A DNA stretch of 33,250 bases from Planctomycetota bacterium (GTDB lineage Bacteria; Planctomycetota; Phycisphaerae; Phycisphaerales; SM1A02), in NCBI GenBank assembly GCA_027618565.1, contig JAQCEQ010000027.1, forward strand, positions 1 to 33,250, given 5' to 3'. Positions 6,375 to 33,250 of this stretch are shown piece after piece (within the stretch, counting starts at the first letter, position 1; every line of letters starts with the position of its first letter). The notes beneath the pieces were generated by a model. That model did no database searches. It saw nothing but the letters and a program-made list of their open reading frames with translations, and was not told where the DNA came from. The position numbers and the translations under genes are program-made.

Positions 6375-7576
6375 TCAGGTCGTGTACTCGGCGTTGAACT
6401 CCACATACGCCTTGGTGAGGCCGCAGGTGAGGAATCGATCCGCTCCCCCGCCGCAGTGGAGGTCGATCTCCAGCGCGACATGGGCCGACGAGAATGCACG
6501 GCGGAGCTGTTCACGCGGCGTTGCGGCGGGCGCACCGTCCGTGAAGAGCGGCAGGCCGTTCGCGGTGACGCAGGCCCTTGCGGGGTCGAACGCCACGCCA
6601 GCGCGGCCCATCGCGGCCAGGATTCGTCCCCAATTTGGATCGCCGCCTGTGATCGCCGTGCGAACGAGCAGGCTCTGGCCCACGGTGCGGGCCACCTGCA
6701 GTGCGTCGGCTGGTGTGGGGGCGCCACGCACCACGATTTCCAGCCCGCGCTCGTAGCCCTCGGCATCCATGACCACCTGCCGTGCGAGGGAGAGCGTGAC
6801 TGAAGTGAACGCCTCTTGCAGCGCGGTCTCGTCGATCGTGGGACCGGCGCCCGATGCCAATGCGAACACCGCGTCATTCGTGGAAGTGTCGCCGTCGATG
6901 GAGATGCGGTGGAAAGAACGATCAACCGCCGCCCGCAAGAGCCGATCCAACGCAGCGGGGTCCAGGGTTGCGTCCGTCGTGATCGCACCGATCAGCGTGG
7001 CCATGTCCGGGTGGATCATTCCCGCGCCCTTGACCACGCCGGTGACGGTTGCGGATCGATCCTGCGAATCAGTCACTCGGACGGATGCCGTCTTCGTGTG
7101 TGTGTCGGTGGTGAGGATGCCGGTGGCGAATGGGTCGACGGAGCCCGCCGCCAGCCTTGTGAGGAGTCCGGGGATGGCAGAGGCGATCTTGTCCGTATCC
7201 AGTTGCACGCCGATCACACCGGTCGAGTTGTGCAGGACTTCGAAGGGTTGGAAGCCCAACGCGGCGGCGACGGAGGCGGTGACCAATGCCGCTCGACGAT
7301 CTCCCTCAGGCCCGGTGGCGGCGTTGGCGCAGCCGGAGTTGACGAAGAGGGCGCGGCAGCGACCCTGCGCCGAGGCCAGGTGCGCGCGCGAGAGTCGAAC
7401 GGGAGCTGCCTGCACGATGTTTCGCGTGAAGACGGCCGCGCTGGCGGCGTGAGGCCCGTCGCAGATGAGCAGCGCAACGTCCGGTCGTCCCGAAGGCTTG
7501 AGCCCGGCAGTGCCGCCGGAAGCACGAAACCCCGCTGGCCACTGGCGCGGCGCGGCCTGGTCAGTCATCGTCGATG

Positions 7577-7580
<4 letters not shown>
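6375..7580 (-). CDS. argJ: Bifunctional glutamate N-acetyltransferase/ornithine acetyltransferase ArgJ
   Basis: ArgJ moves the acetyl group from N-acetylornithine to glutamate, making the cyclic arginine pathway; some members also use acetyl-CoA. The 401-residue product has the family length and the self-cleavage signature KGAGMIHPDMATL, in which Thr195 would become the N-terminal nucleophile of the beta chain. Also visible are HNSTGVIG, the TTDTHTK segment and the C-terminal GGDPNWGRILAAMGRAG and CGLTKAYVEFNAEYTT. The ATG at 7580 overlaps the argH stop as ATGA, which favours it over an in-frame ATG at 7568. It is the last gene of the arginine operon. Confidence 0.95.
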
Positions 7581-9489
<1,909 letters not shown>

Positions 9490-20979: not shown

Positions 20980-23277
20980 TCAGGGTGTGACCAGGGGCGG
21001 CGGGCACGCTTCGAACCACACCCTGAGCGTGGCGTGGCCGTCGAGGTCAAACCAGTCCACCTGGAGGTCGATTTCCCGCGCTTGGGTCACCGAGATCGTG
21101 GCCTCATGGGGCGTGGCGCCGTGGTGGGTCCAGTCCTCGATGTTCGGGTTGCCGTCGACGAGGACGCGAATGCCGTCGTCGCTCACCGTTTTCAGGAGCC
21201 AGCAGCCCGGGGGGAAGAGCACTTTGGCGGTGGCCCGGAAGCCAAAGTTGTCCGCGGGGACTCCCTGGGCAAACGCGCACTCCGAATGTGACCAGAGCGG
21301 TGCCGATCCAAGGGAGAAGTTCAGGCCACCCCGCACGGTGTGGTCGGTGGCTGTTGCCGCCGCCTGCTCGAAAGAGGCGGGGTCATCCACTGGATTGGTG
21401 GGGAGCGCAAACGCCCGCGTGTGCCAGAGGATGGGAGCGATCACGCCGCTGCGCCGGATCACTTGCGCGCGGTCGCTGCCCCATCGCACGGACAGCGAGT
21501 AGGGAAGCACGGCGCTCTCCTGCCCAAGTTCATCCGGTTCCTCGGGTGGCTCGCGATAGACATGAACCGTGTCGGTGTTGATATCGATGGTCGTCCGGAT
21601 GCCGAATCGACCCAGAACTTGAGCACCCTCGACGCTGGCACCAAGGAGATCAAAGTAGTGCTCATCGATTCCCAGCCCGTGCCTGACCAGGACGGGAGTC
21701 ACCTGGTTCCACGGTCCCCACTCCGTCATCTGGATGCGCTCGCGACCGGTGAGGGACGAGCGATTGCCAACGGTTCGCCTGAGCGGCGCCAAGGTCTCTA
21801 CCGCCTTGTTGGCAGCGGCGCGGATCGTGGTCACGCTGTTGGACACCTCGGCGGACGACGGCGAAGGGTGCTCAGCCTGGGTCAGCGGCTGGCCGTTGTC
21901 GGTGGCTTCGATGGAGCAATCGACGAACGCATTGCCCGCAATCGTGGTGTCCTTGGTGTCGCGCAGTTCGATGCCAACCGCGCACCGGCTGAAGGTGTTG
22001 CCGGAGATGGAGGAGCCGATCGCATCCGTACCGGTCGCGCGCGCCCAGGGCGTGGCGAAGATCGAAGGATCCTCGTCCCACCACAGGACCACGCCGGCGG
22101 GGGACTTGGAGACGGTGTTGCGTGCGATGACGCACTGGCGACCGTGCTCAATGTTGACTCCGCCGCGCTCCGCGCCACTGCCGGCCTCGCCGTTGCGCTC
22201 AATCGTGTTCTCGGCGATGAACAGGTTTCCCGAGTAGCCGCCCCACACGCCGCATATGGCGTTGCGCGAGATGGTGTTGCCCACCACGCGATTCCGCTCC
22301 GAAAAGGTGATCTCCACGCCATGCGCGGCCGCGTCGGAGAAGTCGTTGCCGACCAGCACATTGTCGTTGCAGCCCAGCCCCTTGTGGTCTTCGGGGAGCG
22401 GTGAGCCCCGGCCACCCTCGCCCAGCGCCTCGCGGCCGGCGAAGGAGAAATAGCCGTCGCCGCAGTGCGTGGCGGAGTTCTCGGCGAACAGGTTGTTGGA
22501 CGATTGCTCAAACACCAGGATTCCCGCGGAGTCCTGGCCGCGGTTGTAGATGCCGTGGCTGTAGCCGCGGACGCAGAAATCGAAGGCATTGCGCACGACC
22601 GTGTTGCCCGAGCTGCGCCACATCGCCAGCCCCCAGCCGCTCAGGAAGGAGCAGTCGCAGTCCACCACCGCACTGTCGCGCACGCGATCAAGGATGATCC
22701 CGTTCTGCGTGTGTCGAGCCGTGATGCCGCGGATCGTGACACCGCCCGCGGACTCCACGCACAGGCCGGCGCCGTAGTTGGTGCGCCACTCCTGCGAGTC
22801 GTTCTCGTGGGGCCAGAGCCAGTCGGAGGGGTCCTCGGCGCTGTCAGTGCTCAGGAGCCGCTGCGCAAAGTTGTCGCTCACATTGAGGTTGATGAAGGAG
22901 CCGCCGGTGCAGCCTCGCCCCAGGATCCCCACCATGTAGCCCGCCACGCCGCCGTTCTGGAGTGTGACGCCTGGGGCATCGACGACGATTCCGATCCCGC
23001 GCAGCCGGTCAGGGGGGGCACCCACGATCGCGCCGTGCAGAGTGCCGCCTCCCAGGTCCACGGTGATGCCCGGTGCCTGGATCTGGACCACGCCGTCGCC
23101 GTTGAGATCGGGGATCGCGCCAACGGGGAATACAAGCCGGCACGACTCGCGGATCATCGTGTTGTCGGAGCGGACTTCGACCAGCGGAAGTGTGGTGTCC
23201 TGGGGGGACGCGCCTGCGATCTCTCCCGCCGTGGCGGCGAAGGCAAGCAGGAGTGAACCGATTCGCGCCTCGCGCAT
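20980..23277 (-). CDS. Secreted right-handed parallel beta-helix protein with C-terminal PA14-like domain
   Basis: The 765-residue product starts with a hydrophobic segment (GSLLLAFAATAGEIAGA) that fits a signal peptide. Residues about 60-470 contain many turns of a parallel beta-helix of the NosD/pectate-lyase kind, with repeated asparagine-rich units such as NNLFAENSATHCGDG, NRVVGNTISRNAICG, NLFIAENTIERNGEAG and GNTFSRCAVGIEL. The last 130 residues (LNFSLGSAPLW... SDDGIRVLVDGNPNIEDWT... ATLRVWFE) look like a PA14 carbohydrate-binding domain. This points to a secreted or surface polysaccharide-binding or -cleaving protein; the substrate is unknown and no catalytic residues can be named. It begins five bases after the frr stop and lies inside a housekeeping gene string. 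Confidence 0.82.
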   Translation of the reverse strand: MREARIGSLLLAFAATAGEIAGASPQDTTLPLVEVRSDNTMIRESCRLVFPVGAIPDLNGDGVVQIQAPGITVDLGGGTLHGAIVGAPPDRLRGIGIVVDAPGVTLQNGGVAGYMVGILGRGCTGGSFINLNVSDNFAQRLLSTDSAEDPSDWLWPHENDSQEWRTNYGAGLCVESAGGVTIRGITARHTQNGIILDRVRDSAVVDCDCSFLSGWGLAMWRSSGNTVVRNAFDFCVRGYSHGIYNRGQDSAGILVFEQSSNNLFAENSATHCGDGYFSFAGREALGEGGRGSPLPEDHKGLGCNDNVLVGNDFSDAAAHGVEITFSERNRVVGNTISRNAICGVWGGYSGNLFIAENTIERNGEAGSGAERGGVNIEHGRQCVIARNTVSKSPAGVVLWWDEDPSIFATPWARATGTDAIGSSISGNTFSRCAVGIELRDTKDTTIAGNAFVDCSIEATDNGQPLTQAEHPSPSSAEVSNSVTTIRAAANKAVETLAPLRRTVGNRSSLTGRERIQMTEWGPWNQVTPVLVRHGLGIDEHYFDLLGASVEGAQVLGRFGIRTTIDINTDTVHVYREPPEEPDELGQESAVLPYSLSVRWGSDRAQVIRRSGVIAPILWHTRAFALPTNPVDDPASFEQAAATATDHTVRGGLNFSLGSAPLWSHSECAFAQGVPADNFGFRATAKVLFPPGCWLLKTVSDDGIRVLVDGNPNIEDWTHHGATPHEATISVTQAREIDLQVDWFDLDGHATLRVWFEACPPPLVTP

Positions 23278-24676: not shown

Positions 24677-25621
24677 ATGAAAGTACCTTCCCAGCAGCGG
24701 AAATCGACCTCTGGGCGATCACCCGCGAGGCGTTCGCCGTGGTTTCTGTTTCTGCTGGGCGTGATCGTGTCGCTGCCATTCCACGCCCTGTTGGTGGCGA
24801 TACTTGCGGGGTGGTCCGTGCCCTCGGGCAGCATCGGCAGGTCCGACGAGCCCGCGGTGGACATCGTGGTCGCGCTGGCACCGGTCTCGCGCGACGCCGC
24901 GCCAGCGGCGGCGGACACCCCATCCGTGGATACGCAGCCCTTCGTGGAGTCCTCGGAACTGCTGGACCCTGCGCCGCCGAGCATCACGCTAGTGACCGAA
25001 GGCGGCGGCCAGTCCATCAGGCCCGCGGGAATCGTCGCGTCGGGTGGCGGTGGCGCGGGAGGCGGTGCCGAAGTCCGGTTCTTTGGCTCAGCTGGAAAGG
25101 GGCGGCGGATTGGCTACGCGGTGGACTCGTCGGGAAGCATGCTTGCCGCGGGGCGGCTCATCCGCGCCCGCGCCGAACTGGCGCGATCGATCGGATCACT
25201 CCCTGACTATGTCAGCGTGTGCATCGCCTTCTTCAGCGAGGACTGCGTGACGCCGCCGCCGCCGGTGGTGGGGGGCGAGGACATCCGCGGCTTCGTGAAG
25301 GCGCGGCCTGAGAAGACCGACGCACTCCGTGCCTGGATGCAGACAGTGTCCGCGAAGGGGGGGACCAGACCCTCCCGGGCGATTCGCCATCTCTTTAACT
25401 ATCGAGACCCACCCGATGTGATCTTCCTTCTTTCCGACGGCGAGATCAACGAGGAGGAGGTGGAGGCCATCCTCTCGATCAACCGCGCTCGCGGCCCGGC
25501 TCCGATCCATTGCATCCTTTTCAATGCCGGCGACTCCGACCAGGGCCAGAGCCTGCAGCGGATTGCGCAGGAAACCGGTGGCACCTTCCGCCGCACGGCG
25601 ATGGGGGACGGCGGTGGTTGA
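24677..25621 (+). CDS. Membrane-anchored von Willebrand factor A domain protein
   Basis: From ATG 24677 the product is 314 residues. A short basic cytoplasmic start is followed by one membrane segment (WFLFLLGVIVSLPFHALLVAIL, about 22-43), a low-complexity linker (about 50-130) and a vWA domain (about 140-310). The metal site is complete: D150-S152-S154 in AVDSSGSM, Thr230 in GGTRPS and Asp254 in LLSDGE. The topology puts the vWA domain in the periplasm. It is the first of eight overlapping genes that include ExbB and two ExbD proteins. A TACAAT at 24650-24655 could be a -10 element, without a convincing -35. vWA domains mediate protein binding; the partner is unknown. Confidence 0.85.
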   Translation: MKVPSQQRKSTSGRSPARRSPWFLFLLGVIVSLPFHALLVAILAGWSVPSGSIGRSDEPAVDIVVALAPVSRDAAPAAADTPSVDTQPFVESSELLDPAPPSITLVTEGGGQSIRPAGIVASGGGGAGGGAEVRFFGSAGKGRRIGYAVDSSGSMLAAGRLIRARAELARSIGSLPDYVSVCIAFFSEDCVTPPPPVVGGEDIRGFVKARPEKTDALRAWMQTVSAKGGTRPSRAIRHLFNYRDPPDVIFLLSDGEINEEEVEAILSINRARGPAPIHCILFNAGDSDQGQSLQRIAQETGGTFRRTAMGDGGG

Positions 25622-26759
25622 GGTCAGGGTCTGGACAGCCGGCAGCATCCTCGGATTCGCATGCATCGTCGTCCCCGCCGGGGCGCTTCTTGCTGCGTCA
25701 CACGGACTCATTCCCGACACGGTGGTGATCCGGCACGTGCAGGAGCCTGTGCAAGGCACGATTCGCCAGTGGGATGGTGCCGGTGTCCTGATCGTGCGCA
25801 CGGGCGACTCGACACCGACCACGATTCCGTGGACCCGCATCGCGTCGGTCGAAATCGCAGAGCCGGACTCGGACCGCATGGCCGCCATGCGGCGGTGGCT
25901 GGAGGCGTCGGATGGACTCTGGCGCGGCCAGCAGCGGCTGGGTCGCGGCGACTTCGAGATGGCGTGCGAGGGCTTTGCCAAGGCAAGCGCACTCTTTCGC
26001 GACGATGACGGCGAGGCCGGTCAGTTGCTCATGGAGGGCTGGCTTCGATCAATGATCGGTCGCGGATTGACGGCTGATGACCTCCCGGCGGCGTGGTCGC
26101 TTGTCTTGGATGCGGCCGCTCGGCGTGTCGGATCCAAGCAACCAGATGCCTTCGAGCAGCTCCACGATCCGATCGCGGACGGGTTCGGATTGGCGCCCAG
26201 CGTGCCTCCGTTGTTTGTGCCGGCGAAGCTGGCGGAGGCTGCGATCGCTGCCGTTCCTGGGGGCACGGGCGGTGCCGCCGCGCAGGAGGCCCTCCGGTCG
26301 CGCGTCCTGGCGATCGCCGCAGCCGAGGCGGGCGGCGAGGGATCGACTCGCGCAAAGAAACCGGCGAAGGCGAGTGATCGCGACGGATCCGTGGAGTGGG
26401 TGGCGACAATGGATCTCCTGGATCTCTGGATCAAGGGACTCTCTGGCGACGACCGGGCGAGGTCGGACGCCCGAGAGCGACTTGGGGCGATGCCTCTCAC
26501 GCACGAATGGCAGCGGGCGTGGGCTGCGTTGGCTCGCGCGAGGAGTTGGGAGCGAGAGGGCGATGGCACCGGAACTGGCGAGGCCGTGCTGGCGTATGTG
26601 GAGGCCGCGGAAATCGCCTCGGAGAAGGAGCCCGGACTGGCTCGACTGTCGGCACAACAGGCTGCGCGCGTGCTCCGCGGCATGGGTGACAACGCAGCGG
26701 CAGAGCGCGTGATCGGGGCGTACGCTCCCGGCACCATGGAAGGATCGACGAAGCAATGA
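25614..26759 (+). CDS. Exported or membrane-anchored helical protein of unknown function
   Basis: The start is taken as GTG 25614, which overlaps the vWA gene stop by eight bases, giving 381 residues. The N terminus has a hydrophobic stretch (GSILGFACIVVPAGALLAA, about 10-28), consistent with a signal peptide or anchor. Residues about 40-85 look beta-rich (VVIRHVQEPVQGTIRQWDGAGVLIVRT). The rest is mostly helical and alanine-rich, with helical pairs such as LWRGQQRLGRGDFEMACEGFAKASALFRDDDGEAGQLL that resemble TPR units. I do not recognise a named family. Its job is presumably in the same envelope complex as the ExbB and ExbD proteins that follow. Confidence 0.72.
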   Translation: MVEVRVWTAGSILGFACIVVPAGALLAASHGLIPDTVVIRHVQEPVQGTIRQWDGAGVLIVRTGDSTPTTIPWTRIASVEIAEPDSDRMAAMRRWLEASDGLWRGQQRLGRGDFEMACEGFAKASALFRDDDGEAGQLLMEGWLRSMIGRGLTADDLPAAWSLVLDAAARRVGSKQPDAFEQLHDPIADGFGLAPSVPPLFVPAKLAEAAIAAVPGGTGGAAAQEALRSRVLAIAAAEAGGEGSTRAKKPAKASDRDGSVEWVATMDLLDLWIKGLSGDDRARSDARERLGAMPLTHEWQRAWAALARARSWEREGDGTGTGEAVLAYVEAAEIASEKEPGLARLSAQQAARVLRGMGDNAAAERVIGAYAPGTMEGSTKQ

Positions 26760-27496
26760 TGCCACTGGTTCACGGGCCCGGATTGGTCGCCGCCACGCTT
26801 GCGATGGCTGACGCCACCTTGGAGGGCAACGCAACGAACACCCTCATCAAGTATGTCATCGGGGGAGGATGGATCGGCGGGGTGATCGTGTTGATGAGCA
26901 TCGTGGCGCTGGCCTTGGCGATCGCGACGGGGCTGCAGTTGCGGCTCTCCGTCCTGGTGCCGCAGGATCGAGTCAAGAAGTTGCGTTCGCTGGTGGCGAG
27001 CGGCGACTTGGCGACCGCACTCAAGGCCTGCAAGCATCCCGAGAACGACTGCTATGTCTTCCGGATCGCCGGTGCCGCCCTGGAGCGCGCCACTCGGGGC
27101 GTCTTTGGCGGGATCGATGCTCGGCATGCGGCGGAAGAGGAGGGTGAAGCACAGACCATGCGGCTGTTTCGATTGGCGGAGCCGCTGGCCGTCATCGCGG
27201 CCATCGCACCTCTCCTGGGGCTCTTGGGGACGGTGCAGGGGATGATCGGCGCCTTTGAGACGGTGGCCACGCAGGCGGTGGGAGACACCGGCTATTACGA
27301 GCGGCTCGCCGCCAACATCTCCGTGGCCTTGATCACGACCTTCCAGGGGCTGGTCGTGGCGATCCCATGTCTGGTCTTGCACAGCTGGTATCGGTCCAAG
27401 ATCGAGAACGCAGCGAACGAGGTGGGCGCGATCGTGGATGGCATCCTGAGCGTCACGGAGCGTGCCAGCATGTCCCCGGAGGCTGGACACGCGTGA
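26756..27496 (+). CDS. ExbB/TolQ/MotA-family proton channel protein
   Basis: This family forms the pentameric inner-membrane channel that, with ExbD/TolR, turns the proton motive force into work on envelope partners. The 246-residue product has three hydrophobic segments: about 36-61 (GGGWIGGVIVLMSIVALALAIA), about 143-165 (AVIAAIAPLLGLLGTVQGMIGAF, with the family signature PLLGLLGTV-GMI-AF) and about 188-210. The first 25 residues (VHGPGLVAATLAMADA) could be an extra N-terminal segment or signal. The ATG overlaps the preceding stop as ATGA. The length excludes the long-tailed ZorA type. Confidence 0.92.
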   Translation: MMPLVHGPGLVAATLAMADATLEGNATNTLIKYVIGGGWIGGVIVLMSIVALALAIATGLQLRLSVLVPQDRVKKLRSLVASGDLATALKACKHPENDCYVFRIAGAALERATRGVFGGIDARHAAEEEGEAQTMRLFRLAEPLAVIAAIAPLLGLLGTVQGMIGAFETVATQAVGDTGYYERLAANISVALITTFQGLVVAIPCLVLHSWYRSKIENAANEVGAIVDGILSVTERASMSPEAGHA

Positions 27497-27903
27497 GGTT
27501 TGCCAGGCATCGAGCGCTGTCGCCCGCACCGGACATGACGCCGATGGTGGATGTCGTCTTCCTGCTCCTCATTTTTTTCCTCACGACGACGCAGATGGCG
27601 CAGTCCGCCCGCAGCGCCGTCGACCTTCCGGAGGAGGAGGGTGAGGAGGGGGATCTGGTCGCGCGTTCGGCGCTGGTGGTCAACATCGATGCGAGCGGCT
27701 CGTACATCGTGATGGACGATGCTCGCAGCCCCAGCGAGCTGAACTCGCTGGCCCGCGAGGCGGCGTACCTCAATCCTGGCGCGATCCCCATCATCCGCGC
27801 CGACCGGCGGGCGCCGGCGAGCCGACTGAACTTCGTTGTCGAGACGCTTCGTGACGCCGGATTCACCGCCGTGCGACTGGCCACGGCGCCGGAGGGTCGC
27901 TGA
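27493..27903 (+). CDS. ExbD/TolR-family protein 1
   Basis: A GTG at 27493 overlaps the ExbB stop as GTGA; the product is 136 residues, normal for ExbD. A short cytoplasmic start with the family motif SPAPDMTPMVDVVFLLLIFFLTTT gives one membrane helix (about 17-36) carrying the key aspartate (MVDVVFLLL) thought to be protonated during the cycle. The periplasmic domain (about 60-136) shows the TolR/ExbD beta-alpha pattern, including ALVVNIDASGSYIV and IIRADRRAPASRLNFVVETLRDAGFTAVRLA. It pairs with the upstream ExbB. Confidence 0.93.
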   Translation: MRFARHRALSPAPDMTPMVDVVFLLLIFFLTTTQMAQSARSAVDLPEEEGEEGDLVARSALVVNIDASGSYIVMDDARSPSELNSLAREAAYLNPGAIPIIRADRRAPASRLNFVVETLRDAGFTAVRLATAPEGR

Positions 27904-28328
27904 TGCGCTTTGCCTCGCACGCGCTCCGGCGCCGGTCGCGATCCACCGTTCTTGGGCTCACCAGCATGATCGACGCCACCTTCCTGCTGCTGGCGTACTT
28001 CATCTTCACTTCCGGCATGCAGCGTCCCGAGAGCGACCTTCGTGCGCAGACGGCGACGGAGTCCGACCGTGCCAGCGGCGCGGCGATGCTCGAACCGCAG
28101 GTCGTGGATGTGCTTCCCGGCGCGGCTGGCGGGGCGGTCTTCCGGCTTGGTGTCGTGAACCATTCAGATCGCCAATCCCTGGAGACGGCACTGCGCGGGC
28201 TGCCGCGGGGCCCTGGCCTGGTCGTGCGCGTCCACGATGGCGTGATCGTGGCCGATGCCGCGGCGGCGATGCAAGCGGGCCGCAATGCCGGATTTGAAGA
28301 GGTGTCCTATGTGCCTGCCTTGCCGTGA
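27903..28328 (+). CDS. ExbD/TolR-family protein 2
   Basis: This 141-residue product starts in a one-base overlap (TGATG) with the first ExbD. It has a basic cytoplasmic start, then SMIDATFLLLAYFIFTSGM (about 21-39), keeping the critical membrane aspartate, and a shorter, more divergent periplasmic part (about 60-141) with VVRVHDGVIVADAAAAMQAGRNAGFEEVSYV. Two adjacent ExbD paralogues suggest a heterodimeric stator instead of the usual homodimer. That arrangement is inferred. Confidence 0.9.
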   Translation: MRFASHALRRRSRSTVLGLTSMIDATFLLLAYFIFTSGMQRPESDLRAQTATESDRASGAAMLEPQVVDVLPGAAGGAVFRLGVVNHSDRQSLETALRGLPRGPGLVVRVHDGVIVADAAAAMQAGRNAGFEEVSYVPALP

Positions 28329-30912
28329 CCCATCGGTGAGTGCGGGTGCGTCGCGCGCCGCAGGATCGTCGTCGCGGCTGGCCCTGGCGATGGCGACATT
28401 CGTCGTTGCGGCCTTCGCACCCTTGGAGCGCGGAGCCTTGGCCCAGGCCACCGACATCGAGCGAGGCCGCGTGGAGCGACGCATCGAGCAGCTCGGGCTG
28501 GACCACCTGCGCATCGGGCAACTGGAATCGCAATTGGACGGGACCGGGAATCCAGCCACCAAGCAGCCCGTGGCGGAGGAACTGGCACGCTTGTACCTGA
28601 GTGCGCTGGCCGCCGATCGCTTGGACTTGGAGGGCACGAGCCGCGACCGAATGCTGCGCCTCATGGAGGTGTGGGATGTCGGCATCGAGAACGCGCTGGC
28701 GCTCGCCATCGCCAGCCGGGCGTATGAACGGGGCGAAGCCATCGCCGAGAGCGGGCGCACGCACACATTGACCCCCGAGGAGCTGGCCAAGGCGCAAGAG
28801 TGGCTGCAACTGGCGGAGCGAACCAGCGAGAGCGCGCGGGTCCTTCTGGAGCAGGCGCGGGCGTCGCTTGCCAAGTCTGCGGGCACCACGACCGATGCGC
28901 GGCACCGCCAGGAGCTCTCTGAGAAACTGGAACTGGTCCGCCCAAGCCTGGTCGAGGCCCAGTTCCGTCACGCGTGGTCGGGGTACAGGCTCGCGTGGCT
29001 GGCGTGGGATGGCTTGGCGGAAGACGCTCGGCAACGAGAGGGGGAGGAGCTGGTCAGTCGGTTTGCGAGGGTTCTTGAGATCGATTCCGGTCATCCGCGT
29101 GCGGCCGACGCCAGCATCGACCTTCGAGGCGAGCCCTACTACGCCAGTGCCCTGGAGGGCATGGCGCTGTCGCAGGCTCTGATCGCCCGAAGCGAGCAAA
29201 ATGCCGTGATGGCCGCGTCGTGGGTGGAGTTGCTGAACCATGAGCGCACGGCGGCGGCTTCGCGCGAGAACGCCGCGTCCTTGGCGGTGATCACGGCGGT
29301 TGACGCTCGAGACTGGCAGCGGGTCGAGAAGCATCTCAACGAGTCGAATGCGCCGGCGCACGCGATGGAATGCGTCCTCGAGGCATCGCTGGCTGGCGGG
29401 CAGGGCGATCCGCTGGGCACCCAGGCCGCGCTCGGCGCCGCGCTGGGGCTCATGCGCGACTTAGCCTGGAGATCGATCGTGCGGCACGGCGATGGGTTGC
29501 GTCGCCTTGGGGATCCCGCCGGCAGCCAGGGCACCACGCTTGCCGCAGCACTGGTGGACGCCGCGATGGCACTGGTGGCTGCGGAACAGTCCGACGGAGC
29601 GCCGCGTCGTGCTGCGGCCTGGGATGCGGTGGCTCCCTTGCGGGAGATTCTCTCCACCGATCATGTCTCTGCTAACCAGCCGCTGGCCCGGAGCGCACGA
29701 GCGGCGCTGGGGTGGGCACTCTTGGAGAGTGGTCGACCCGCCGAAGCCGCGCCCATCCTGGCGAAGGCAGCTGAAGATGACTGGTCGCAGGCGGAGCGAT
29801 TCTTGTGGCTGGCGATCGTGGCACGAGAGCGTGCTGCGGGGGACTTGGCGCTCAAGGACGCGGAGTTGGCGCGACTACGAGAGCAGTACCAAGCCCGCTT
29901 TGGCGCGATGGGCAAGGGGGCGGCGATGCTGGTGCGCGACAGCGCCTCGCGCCAACCACCCGAACTTGGATTCGTGTCCGCACTCTCGCAGGTGCCGGCC
30001 GCTGATTCCGCGTGGGCGGACTCGATCCGGGAACTCTCGAGGATCCACTATTGGCACTACCGCAATGCGCGCGGAGACCAGCGACTGGTGGAGGCGCGCG
30101 CGCTCCTGGCGTTGCCCCTGCCGCCCGTGGCGGAAGGGCGGCCCGGCCCCGAGGAAATCCTCCGCCGGCAATTGGAAGTGGCGCTGGACGGCGCTGCCGG
30201 CGATCCCGTGACCGCCGCGAGACTGTTGGCGGTGGCGCGCGAGTTGGCGTCGCGAGGCCTGATGGCGGGTGCCGAGGCCGAACTGGCCTGCCGCGAGGTC
30301 CAGGTCGCGTGTGCCGAGGGTGACTTGGAAGCAGCGGCGGGCCGGTTCGGCGAGCTGGACCAGCGGGAGCCAAGTCGTGCGTGGCGAGACCTGGCCAGGA
30401 CCATCTACCTCCGCTCGATCGACAGCGTGGTTGCCGGCGGCGGCACGCTCAACGGAAGCGTGGCGCGAGTGGCCAGTCAGTGTGCTCGCGAACTCCTCAC
30501 CGATGCACGGGGTGGTGACGCGAGGGCGACGCTCCGTGCCTGCGAACTTCTTCTGGCGGTAGGCGACAGGGATGGACTCACGGACGCGGCTGCGGCGTTC
30601 GATGCGCTTCCCGAGGCGGACGCGCGAGCTCCCGCGACGCTCCTCATGCGCGGACGGGTGTCGCTGGCGCTGGGGAACGCTGACCATGCGAAGGCCGCCT
30701 TCACCGCCGCCATGACCGGCGCTCGGCAAGGCGACCTCACTTGGTACGAGGCCAAAGTGCAGTTGGTAGGGGTGCTTGAGGGATCCGATCCGGAGGCGGC
30801 CCGCTCGCTCCTGAAGCAACACAAGGCGTTGGACCCATCGTGGGGTCCGGAGCCAGCAGGCTCGGTCCTTCGCGATGCCGCGCGTCGGCTTGGCGTGGAG
30901 GCTGGATCGTGA
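28309..30912 (+). CDS. Large exported TPR-like protein of unknown function
   Basis: The start at ATG 28309 follows GAAGAGG and overlaps the second ExbD gene by 20 bases, giving 867 residues. An N-terminal hydrophobic stretch (LALAMATFVVAAFAPLERGALAQ, about 25-47) with ALAQ at its end fits a cleaved signal peptide. The remainder is almost wholly helical and alanine-rich, with recurrent two-helix units of about 34 residues, e.g. GWALLESGRPAEAAPILAKA and RGRVSLALGNADHAKAAFTAAM, typical of TPR-like solenoids. There is no catalytic motif. Such proteins scaffold complexes; a periplasmic partner of the ExbB/ExbD channel is the most likely role, but this is not shown by sequence. Confidence 0.75.
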   Translation: MCLPCRDPSVSAGASRAAGSSSRLALAMATFVVAAFAPLERGALAQATDIERGRVERRIEQLGLDHLRIGQLESQLDGTGNPATKQPVAEELARLYLSALAADRLDLEGTSRDRMLRLMEVWDVGIENALALAIASRAYERGEAIAESGRTHTLTPEELAKAQEWLQLAERTSESARVLLEQARASLAKSAGTTTDARHRQELSEKLELVRPSLVEAQFRHAWSGYRLAWLAWDGLAEDARQREGEELVSRFARVLEIDSGHPRAADASIDLRGEPYYASALEGMALSQALIARSEQNAVMAASWVELLNHERTAAASRENAASLAVITAVDARDWQRVEKHLNESNAPAHAMECVLEASLAGGQGDPLGTQAALGAALGLMRDLAWRSIVRHGDGLRRLGDPAGSQGTTLAAALVDAAMALVAAEQSDGAPRRAAAWDAVAPLREILSTDHVSANQPLARSARAALGWALLESGRPAEAAPILAKAAEDDWSQAERFLWLAIVARERAAGDLALKDAELARLREQYQARFGAMGKGAAMLVRDSASRQPPELGFVSALSQVPAADSAWADSIRELSRIHYWHYRNARGDQRLVEARALLALPLPPVAEGRPGPEEILRRQLEVALDGAAGDPVTAARLLAVARELASRGLMAGAEAELACREVQVACAEGDLEAAAGRFGELDQREPSRAWRDLARTIYLRSIDSVVAGGGTLNGSVARVASQCARELLTDARGGDARATLRACELLLAVGDRDGLTDAAAAFDALPEADARAPATLLMRGRVSLALGNADHAKAAFTAAMTGARQGDLTWYEAKVQLVGVLEGSDPEAARSLLKQHKALDPSWGPEPAGSVLRDAARRLGVEAGS

Positions 30913-32888
30913 CTTCGATTCTGGCGCAGGCGTGTGGCGTCGCCGATGGTGCCAGCGACGAGGCGGTGGTTGGTGTGCTGGCACTTCCGGGCCGCAAGGA
31001 GATCTCGGATGCCATCGACATCCGGCTCCGGGCAATCGCCGCACACCCCAACAGCCAGGGCCCGCGTGGCGTGGAGGCTCGAGCCAGGGTCGTGCAGGCG
31101 GCGCGGCGCCTGATGCGGGATGCCTTGGCTCGGGAGCGAGAGAGCGCTGAGCGGATGGGGGCTCGCGGCAAGGTTCTCCAGAAGCCGCCCTCTGGGACCG
31201 CGACAGCCGGCGTGTCCTTGCCCGACGGCACCACACGCGAGTTGGCGGCCATCCTGAGGGCCGCAGGGGGCTGGAACGAGCGCAGCCGGCAACGCGTGAT
31301 GGCTTGGGCTCGGCACCGCAGACTGTCCGCGGACCAGCTCCGGCTGGCGTTCACAAAAGTCATTGGTGCGCGAGCGCGTGGTCCCAGCCGTCGCGAGGCG
31401 GATCTTCCGGCGGCCGCGATGGAGGGCCTCGCCGCCAGCATCGATGTGGTGATCGATCCGCCACGGTCGAGCCGCTGGGTCACCGCAATGTTGGTGGTGG
31501 CGGGAGCCCTGCTCAGCCTGACCGCCGGAATCGTGGCGTGGAACGCGATGCGCGCGCCCGACGGGAGTGGCGACGCTCAGCCGACCGTGCGGCACCCCGA
31601 CCGGACGACGGCCGATCGCATCACCGAGAGCGATGTCGCCGTTGCAGCGGGCCCCGGCGTCGACGGAGTGCCAGAGAACGGCGCGGGCTCCGCGGGCCAG
31701 CCCGGACGCACCGAAAGAGAATCGAACGCCCCACACTCAGAGGGCGGCGGGGGAGACGCATCGACCGCTCCCACCCCAGCGCCCGTCGTTATCCACCGCG
31801 ATGATCGCGTGCTCGCACTCCTCGCCCAATGGAATCAGGCCGCAAGGTCCACCTGGGAACTGGAGCAGCTCCCGGCCTCGCCGCTGGAAGTGATCGCGCG
31901 GCTGGAGAGGACTCACGCGCTCCTGGAGGCCGCATCGTCGATTGAACATGGCCAATTGGAATCGGCGGCCGGGCTGCTGCAATCGACGCCCGCCAGTCCA
32001 GCGCGATTGGCCGTGCGCCCTGTCCTGCCGACCGTGGAAACGGCGGATTCCATACTGAGTTCTTCGCTCAAGCAGGCAGGCCAGGCGGCCAGCTCGCGCC
32101 GTCGTGCGCTGGAGCAGTTCGCTCGAGAGGGGGCCAATCGAATCGGACCCGAGAACGCGGCCGCGCTGGCCACCGCGGCGTTCTCGGACGAATCCGTCGA
32201 TGTCAGGAGCCTTGCACAGAGGATGGTGCTGGAGCAGTTCGTGGGCAGCCGTGCGATGACGCTGGCGATGGTCAATGCGCTGCCGCTGGCACTTCCGGCG
32301 CGGGAACGCGAGGCCCGCGAGTTCGTGGAGCGCTACCTCCAGGAGTCGTGCGATGTTCCCACGGCGCGGTGGCGCGCCTGGGCTACTCGAGCGCTCGCGG
32401 ATCGAGCCCTGCACGACATCAGCGCCGTGAGCGTGGCGATCGACCGGCGCGCGGAGACGCTGCGGGCGACGGTGGGCTCGCGTGCCGTGGTGGTTGGTGC
32501 CAGCCCCAGCGAGGTGGCCTCCGCCCGCACCGCGGAAGAGTGCGCCGCCCTGGTCCTGGCGAAGCTCTTGGCGAAGCTCTTGGCGGAGGCACCTGCCTCC
32601 GAGCAACAGGGGCACGCGAGGGCCTTGGCACTGCGGATTCGTGCTGCCGATGGCCCCCCGCAGCGATTTGAAGCGGTGCAGTGGACGATGGTCGAAGTGA
32701 CGGCGTCGGGAATCGTGTCGCGATGGCCGGCGGAACGCGAGGCCGTGGGGCGGATCGTCGAGGGCGCGACACGGAGTCGCGATGGTGCTGCAACGATATT
32801 GGAACAGTTGGCCAGCGACGCTCGCGCGTTGCTCGCCCTCACCGAGCTCCGGCTCCACCTGCAGTTCAGCCTGGGAGGCAAGGCATGA
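30909..32888 (+). CDS. Single-pass membrane protein of unknown function with periplasmic helical domain
   Basis: GTG 30909 overlaps the preceding stop as GTGA; the product is 659 residues. Residues 1-189 appear cytoplasmic: two helical parts, the first (about 15-75) with EAVVGVLALPGRKEISDAIDIRL and ARARVVQAARRLMRDAL, which faintly recalls a J-like helical pair but has no HPD. One membrane helix follows (WVTAMLVVAGALLSLTAGIVAW, 190-211), then a Gly/Pro/Thr-rich linker (about 215-280) and a long helical region in the periplasm. It could connect cytoplasm and periplasm in the envelope machine. No known family was recognised. Confidence 0.72.
   Translation: MTSILAQACGVADGASDEAVVGVLALPGRKEISDAIDIRLRAIAAHPNSQGPRGVEARARVVQAARRLMRDALARERESAERMGARGKVLQKPPSGTATAGVSLPDGTTRELAAILRAAGGWNERSRQRVMAWARHRRLSADQLRLAFTKVIGARARGPSRREADLPAAAMEGLAASIDVVIDPPRSSRWVTAMLVVAGALLSLTAGIVAWNAMRAPDGSGDAQPTVRHPDRTTADRITESDVAVAAGPGVDGVPENGAGSAGQPGRTERESNAPHSEGGGGDASTAPTPAPVVIHRDDRVLALLAQWNQAARSTWELEQLPASPLEVIARLERTHALLEAASSIEHGQLESAAGLLQSTPASPARLAVRPVLPTVETADSILSSSLKQAGQAASSRRRALEQFAREGANRIGPENAAALATAAFSDESVDVRSLAQRMVLEQFVGSRAMTLAMVNALPLALPAREREAREFVERYLQESCDVPTARWRAWATRALADRALHDISAVSVAIDRRAETLRATVGSRAVVVGASPSEVASARTAEECAALVLAKLLAKLLAEAPASEQQGHARALALRIRAADGPPQRFEAVQWTMVEVTASGIVSRWPAEREAVGRIVEGATRSRDGAATILEQLASDARALLALTELRLHLQFSLGGKA
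32558..32581 (+). repeat. 12-bp tandem duplication inside the 659-residue membrane protein gene
   Basis: GGCGAAGCTCTT occurs twice in a row, encoding the doubled LAKLLAKLL stretch (near residue 555). It preserves the frame and looks like a recent slippage event in a helix. Confidence 0.8.
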
Positions 32889-33250
32889 AGCGGTGCGTCC
32901 TCGTGGCAGCGGGCTTGGTGGCGTTCACCGCCACGCCGCAGGCCGCCCCACAGTCCCCGGCGGCTGGGCGTGACGGGTCTGGCGGTCGCACCGCGGCGCT
33001 TGAGGCGCTGGTGCCGGAGAGCCCAGAGTCGTACTTCCTCCTGGCGGAGACCGTGGCCGATGGCGCCCAGTCGCCGGGGGCGTGGCGACTGGCAGCGCAG
33101 CTCTTCGCGCTGAGCGGCGCCCTGGATCCGGAACGATTCGGACGCAGCGGGGCATTGGGCGTGGCGGATGTGACAGACGCACGGAGTGCGGGTGGAGAGC
33201 GCTGCCGGTCGGCGGCACAGGCCTTGGCCCACTCCAAGGGCGCGCGCGTG
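32885..33250 (+). CDS. Exported protein of unknown function (3' end outside the window)
   Basis: ATG 32885 overlaps the previous stop as ATGA and the frame stays open to the window edge (122 codons seen). The start MKRCVLVAAGLVAFTATPQAAPQ is a clear Sec-type signal peptide with an AxA-like site near residue 21. The following part is helical (YFLLAETVADGAQSPGAWRLAAQLFALSGAL), again TPR-like in character. It continues the operon of the vWA and ExbB/ExbD proteins and would be a further periplasmic component. Confidence 0.75.
   Translation, partial: MKRCVLVAAGLVAFTATPQAAPQSPAAGRDGSGGRTAALEALVPESPESYFLLAETVADGAQSPGAWRLAAQLFALSGALDPERFGRSGALGVADVTDARSAGGERCRSAAQALAHSKGARV

Follow-up and report, generated by a model that had tools for sequence, protein, structure and literature searches.

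The transducers TonB and TolA carry an SHLS motif (Ser-X3-His-X6-Leu-X3-Ser), the Ser and His of which were identified by cryo-EM as conserved contacts, with the Leu and the last Ser varying in Ton (PMC12215075). In E. coli, this Ser and His contact Ser34 and Trp38 of ExbB and are linked to Pro190 (PMC12215075). Recently, vWA force transducers have been predicted from PVC operons (Mol Biol Evol 2025, Fig. 4a,b; PMC12204202). In the passages of that paper drawn on here they stand as a prediction only, presented without phenotype, client or known function; their architecture is predicted by AF3 to dock, and gliding is suggested as a role. The Agl motor, finally, consists of AglR together with AglQ and AglS, and is associated with the TPR protein GltC, with GltG and GltJ, which have large periplasmic regions, and with the vWA lipoproteins CglB/CglD (PMC4488436).

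The stretch of DNA analysed here (the window; 33,250 nucleotides from a Planctomycetota bacterium) constitutes all of contig C33 of a 2.26 Mb genome in 62 contigs, and ends in an operon of eight genes. With a probability of approximately 0.72, this operon would encode a trans-envelope machine powered by the proton motive force, composed of an ExbB/ExbD channel, a vWA transducer docked through an SHLS motif, and scaffold partners with helical repeats. Judged from sequence, this is the most likely reading, and the evidence for it is the gene set, its fixed order, the co-occurrence of the genes and the invariance of docking, metal and channel residues.

The operon is of the recently proposed vWA-transducer kind, but its vWA gene comes first and three further families are included in a fixed order. 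The features it has in common with the PVC transducers, as these are described in the passages cited from PMC12204202, are the SHLS-bearing transmembrane (TM) helix, the Pro-rich linker (approximately 100 residues there) and the C-terminal vWA domain, as well as an adjacent TPR gene, one tolQ-like gene and two different tolR-like genes. According to the same passages, the PVC vWA gene is often, but not necessarily, located downstream of TPR/tolQ/tolR, whereas it opens the operon in the window; the genes g2, g659 and g8, which the window operon adds in fixed order, are not mentioned there. A reading made earlier from the sequence alone had considered the machine to be of a type not assignable to any described system. 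This view had to be abandoned, since the passages cited already predict the vWA-transducer class. What appears to be new is the rigid eight-gene set with its three unnamed families and a J-like domain on g659; a literature search covering few subscription journals and no preprints returned no paper on the eight-gene module. A layout like that in PMC12204202 (HEAT-TPR-ExbB-ExbD-ExbD-vWA) was found in a sister family (L083, genome G064, contig C50). Of 15 other genomes searched for this layout, mostly from families lacking the operon, only G085 had a clear vWA relative of the G064 type (G085:C1:4770253).

Compared to Ton, the window shares the ExbB/ExbD channel, the S-x3-H docking helix and the linker, but has a vWA domain instead of TonB_C, two ExbD genes, and a genome without a TonB-dependent receptor plug. 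With Tol-Pal it has in common a TolQ/TolR-like motor with a trans-periplasmic lever, while a vWA domain replaces the C-terminal domain of TolA, four helical-repeat proteins are present, the operon lacks Pal and the genome lacks TolB_N. The second family outlined in the cited passages of PMC12204202, TPH-vWA/TolQ, likewise has a vWA protein tethered at a TolQ-like pentamer; there, however, ExbD is absent and the pore Asp is located on the vWA helix, whereas the window encodes two ExbD proteins and has no Asp in this helix. Likened by its parts list, Agl-Glt of Myxococcus may be the nearest functional analogue, with one TolQ-like and two TolR-like proteins, a periplasmic TPR protein, large periplasmic parts and vWA proteins. 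It differs in that the vWA protein of the window is tethered to the inner membrane and carries SHLS, and in that the operon has no barrel genes.

Gene order and conservation of the operon

The operon (24677-33250) comprises eight open reading frames in the same direction, all uninterrupted and running up to the contig end, in the order vWA, g2, ExbB, ExbD1, ExbD2, TPR (867 aa), g659 and g8 (Table 1). The junctions overlap by 8, 4, 4, 1, 20, 4 and 4 bp, respectively, exactly as the sequence-only reading had listed them. Its assignments of the vWA, ExbB and two ExbD proteins were likewise confirmed by Pfam matches over the cut-offs, while its TPR-like call for the 867-aa protein corresponded to TPR matches below the Pfam cut-off. 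For g2, g659 and g8, no match was obtained in Pfam and nothing usable in NCBIfam. Since the window is the entire contig, g8 is incomplete; in relatives of the same genus it is 268-269 aa long and the last gene of the operon, followed by a gene on the opposite strand.

Table 1. Position and supporting evidence of the features discussed, numbered within the window except for the last entry, which is located on another contig of the same genome
Feature	Position	Strand	Evidence
vWA protein, predicted force transducer, 314 aa	24677..25621	+	PF13768 (VWA_3), E 3.4e-11; orthologue alignment
SHLS motor-docking motif in TM helix, S32-x3-H36-x6-L43-x3-S47	24770..24817	+	read directly
Metal (MIDAS) site, D150-x-S152-x-S154, T230, D254	25124..25438	+	invariant in 29 orthologues
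g2, exported, 381 aa, no Pfam family	25614..26759	+	sequence alignment
ExbB/TolQ-type channel, 246 aa	26756..27496	+	PF01618 (MotA_ExbB), 83 bits; alignment with solved TolQ/ExbB
ExbD1, 136 aa, pore aspartate D20	27493..27903	+	PF02472, 84.5 bits
ExbD2, 141 aa, pore aspartate D24	27903..28328	+	PF02472, 33.7 bits
TPR-like exported protein, 867 aa	28309..30912	+	sub-threshold TPR matches; family in 72/101 relatives
g659, bitopic, 659 aa, no Pfam family	30909..32888	+	AlphaFold2 model, mean pLDDT 80
J-like domain of g659	30957..31178	+	profile search; Foldseek; HPN motif
TM helix of g659, residues 189-215	31473..31553	+	AlphaFold2 model; hydrophobic stretch read directly
g8, exported, TPR-like, 122 of approximately 268 codons before the contig end	32885..33250	+	relatives; model of the L064 orthologue
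Second S-x3-H transducer (degenerate TonB_C), adjacent to ExbD and STAS genes	L224 (G000:C41:8000-24000), 6461-8390	-	

The conservation of the arrangement was assessed in 80 loci from named genomes, many of them Phycisphaerales, which were picked by an alignment search with the vWA protein alone. All eight genes were found in this order in 40 of the 80 loci and in another order in none; most of the remaining loci were truncated at contig ends or had incomplete gene calls. Poorly called loci (8 of the 80, as well as L066 and L091) were left out of the absence counts. In stretches of 20 kb centred on TPR-gene relatives, the eight genes came in the identical order with g8 last, frequently with an opposite-strand gene after it. 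The overlaps themselves are kept in relatives: most junctions have 4 bp as their most frequent overlap, and many relatives have 17-20 bp between ExbD2 and the TPR gene. The operon is conserved across more than 50 genera, which excludes chance. In 30 of 32 loci the nearest divergent gene upstream was pyrH, followed in 21 by frr; the position of the operon is therefore also old. Elsewhere in the window, between genes for ribosome recycling factor and an NrdR-like protein, lies a gene for an exported protein of 765 aa whose repeats resemble a parallel beta-helix (20980-23277, minus strand).

Among 101 relatives, the TPR-protein profile and the g659 profile were both matched in 70, one of the two alone in 2 and 2, and neither in 27. 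The operon genes thus do co-occur, a check that had been proposed along with the sequence-only reading. Two families of the order lacked the operon, as did a few near-complete genomes of its own family; it is therefore not indispensable. Conversely, full eight-gene copies were present in a distant planctomycete family (L119-L121). In this distant family, a second, paralogous copy of six genes (vWA, g2-like, ExbB, ExbD, ExbD and TPR) was also found (L123 in G363 and L130 in G328), in a genus (g207) that has the eight-gene operon as well. This copy lacks g659 and g8, which are consequently not needed for every vWA motor.

The channel and the predicted docking helix of the vWA protein

The channel proteins belong to the MotA/TolQ/ExbB and ExbD/TolR families, as seen from Pfam matches over the cut-off, pore threonines and pore aspartates. 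In ExbB, S48, T159, T194 and P204 were invariant in all 32 sequences compared. T159 and T194 are the pore threonines, while S48 and P204 match Ser34 and Pro190 of E. coli ExbB; Leu or Val predominates at the position of Trp38, so that two of the three docking residues are invariant. The pore Asp of ExbD was invariant in 47 sequences covering both ExbD types, which differ from each other in their periplasmic parts.

The vWA protein has an N-terminal TM helix, a Pro/Gly-rich linker (approximately residues 48-135) and a C-terminal vWA domain matched from residue 149. Its TM helix (SLPFHALLVAILAGWS) contains the full S-H-L-S spacing. The S-x3-H part was present in 32/32 orthologues and in all 24 vWA proteins of a set that included the distant family and the paralogue, compared to a background of 10 in 540 hydrophobic segments (1.9%) from the remaining proteins encoded at these loci. 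The Leu and final Ser of the motif are not conserved in most vWA orthologues. After the helix, where the vWA transducers of PMC12204202 have a motor-box beta-strand, the orthologue alignment revealed a conserved EFAxL/VDIVVALAP stretch. The complete metal site that had been noted in the sequence proved to be invariant across the orthologues aligned. As to the earlier suggestion that the vWA and TPR proteins take the place of TonB and TolA, the part concerning the vWA protein is well supported, since its TM helix bears the SHLS docking motif, which had been overlooked; the part concerning the TPR protein is only conjectural. With docking residues invariant on both partners, the locus provides strong independent support for the vWA-transducer prediction of 2025.

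Helical-repeat proteins and g659

At its N-terminus, g2 bears a conserved G-x-V...IPWDRV segment, after which helical repeats follow. For g8, the orthologue of the closest relative (L064) was predicted to be almost all-helical and TPR-like, with a mean pLDDT of 81. A fold search with g8 returned a TPR-type arrangement for residues 28-118 (best Z 9.8, rmsd 3.0, 86 aligned). This arrangement is common and not specific for a repeat protein, and the assignment of g8 to a specific repeat-protein fold was thus rejected. In some lineages (L072:12668-13618, L075:6808-7740, L090:12659-13615, L081 and L098), g8, an exported protein, contains an inserted Cys-rich stretch with CxxC repeats, which resembles a zinc finger of the DnaJ type.

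The g659 protein is not simply exported. Approximately 190 of its residues are predicted to lie in the cytoplasm; a single TM helix follows, and then a disordered linker and a helical domain in the periplasm. The first 90 residues display the helix-HPx-helix order of a J domain, and a profile built from 29 g659 N-termini gave DnaJ as the top match in the PDB, albeit a weak one (E 0.017), with the Pfam DnaJ match (0.03) below the cut-off. Foldseek similarly returned the J domain of DNAJC12, with a probability of 0.97 but an E value of 1.1. The motif reads HPN in the window and HPD in 9 of 29 orthologues, and the domain was also found in relatives (L065, L067, L074, L078, L084, L094 and L099). 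On this sequence and model evidence the N-terminus is termed J-like, and is not called a J domain. A fold search also matched residues 376-504 to armadillo-like repeats (best Z 8.1), which was discarded as lying within the chance range for helical repeats.

Proposed mechanism and alternative explanations

In the proposed mechanism, five ExbB subunits and a pair of ExbD subunits, probably one ExbD1 and one ExbD2, would form the proton channel, and the vWA TM helix would dock on ExbB via Ser32 and His36, as TonB and TolA do, with the linker and vWA domain extending into the periplasm. The metal site probably holds an acidic residue of a partner, and proton flow through ExbB/ExbD may result in a pull or in release of the vWA grip, the force passing via the linker. 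The most likely partners are g2, the 867-aa TPR protein, g8 and g659 (its periplasmic half); jointly, these would constitute a scaffold to a client in the outer membrane or wall; the binding of the vWA domain to helical-repeat proteins is proposed from gene order alone. In addition, g659 may act as a reporter between the cytoplasm, through its J-like domain, and the scaffold. A bolder proposal, put forward only tentatively, is that the operon encodes a machine separate in kind from Ton, Tol, Mot and Agl, as well as from the minimal vWA clusters, with a MIDAS-tipped lever, four mostly unnamed helical-repeat scaffold proteins and a bitopic J-like protein coupling it to the cytoplasm, perhaps to Hsp70. 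The analysis defines a list of parts that are conserved across an order and also outside it, and delimits three unnamed families that should hold the target-side parts of the machine, which makes the question of what a vWA motor pulls on testable.

Alternatively, the operon could be a diverged Tol-Pal or Ton system, with the vWA protein as the local TolA or TonB and the operon maintaining the outer membrane or taking up nutrients. Of the solved structures and the NCBIfam models, those nearest to the window ExbB and ExbD are indeed TolQ and TolR, OmpA/Pal-type proteins are encoded elsewhere in the genome (contigs C5 and C55), and TolB_N was found in none of the 61 genomes searched (control genomes were positive), leaving room for a replacement. 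This explanation is nevertheless unlikely, as the genome that lacks TolB_N also gave no match to TonB_C (PF03544) or the receptor plug (PF07715) at E 0.001; both are absent from its genus, each being found in 27 of 61 relatives. Furthermore, no Pal or TolB gene is conserved in or beside the operon, and no OmpA-type gene lies inside it. A Tol/Ton-like system moreover seems to be present already: a second likely transducer of 389 aa, which combines S-x3-H and a Pro-rich linker with a weak match to TonB_C (E 0.047), is encoded on contig C41 next to its own ExbD, and a TolQ-like gene adjoins an FHA/SpoIIE-type gene on contig C28. The vWA machine may thus work beside such a system and need not replace it, and a Tol/Ton replacement was dropped as the main reading in view of the separate transducer on C41. 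The idea of an envelope machine that is powered by protons and belongs to neither Ton nor Tol is hence supported. The sequence-only reading had named two findings that would count against it, namely TolA/Pal-like partners just beyond the window and a lack of co-occurrence in relatives; a search next to the operon in relatives revealed no such partners, and since the genes do co-occur, neither finding was made.

That the operon encodes a gliding or surface-secretion machine working by analogy with Agl-Glt appears about equally improbable. Gliding has been proposed for vWA transducers in the cited passages of PMC12204202, and one TolQ, two TolR, a periplasmic TPR protein, a bitopic regulator and a vWA part would be shared. 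CglB and CglD are, however, known or predicted outer-membrane lipoproteins, whereas the vWA protein of the window is held at the inner membrane, and genes for OmpA-type barrels like GltA/GltB are missing from the operon. Least probable is a metal-dependent role of the vWA protein in assembly or adhesion, as an operon mate of the ExbBD motor that is not driven by it. vWA domains are frequent adhesion or assembly modules, which would suit such a role, but the TM helix of this protein invariably carries the S-x3-H docking motif, and the operon encodes no other transducer resembling TonB or TolA.

Several further observations concern motor genes and their surroundings. Over the 61 relatives, OmpA/Pal-type proteins were universal and TolB_N occurred in none; any Tol-Pal system in this order would accordingly work without a recognisable TolB. 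Another MotA/ExbB-like gene of the genome (L105, G000:C4, 7827-17782, minus strand) has two partners with a TM helix plus coiled coil and lies in a cluster of large unknown proteins. In a relative (L128, G381:C36, 10900-14718), a 1273-aa protein is encoded after TPR-ExbB-ExbD, with a seemingly beta-propeller-like N-terminal part and a later TM helix that contains ALLVH, with no Ser at -4.
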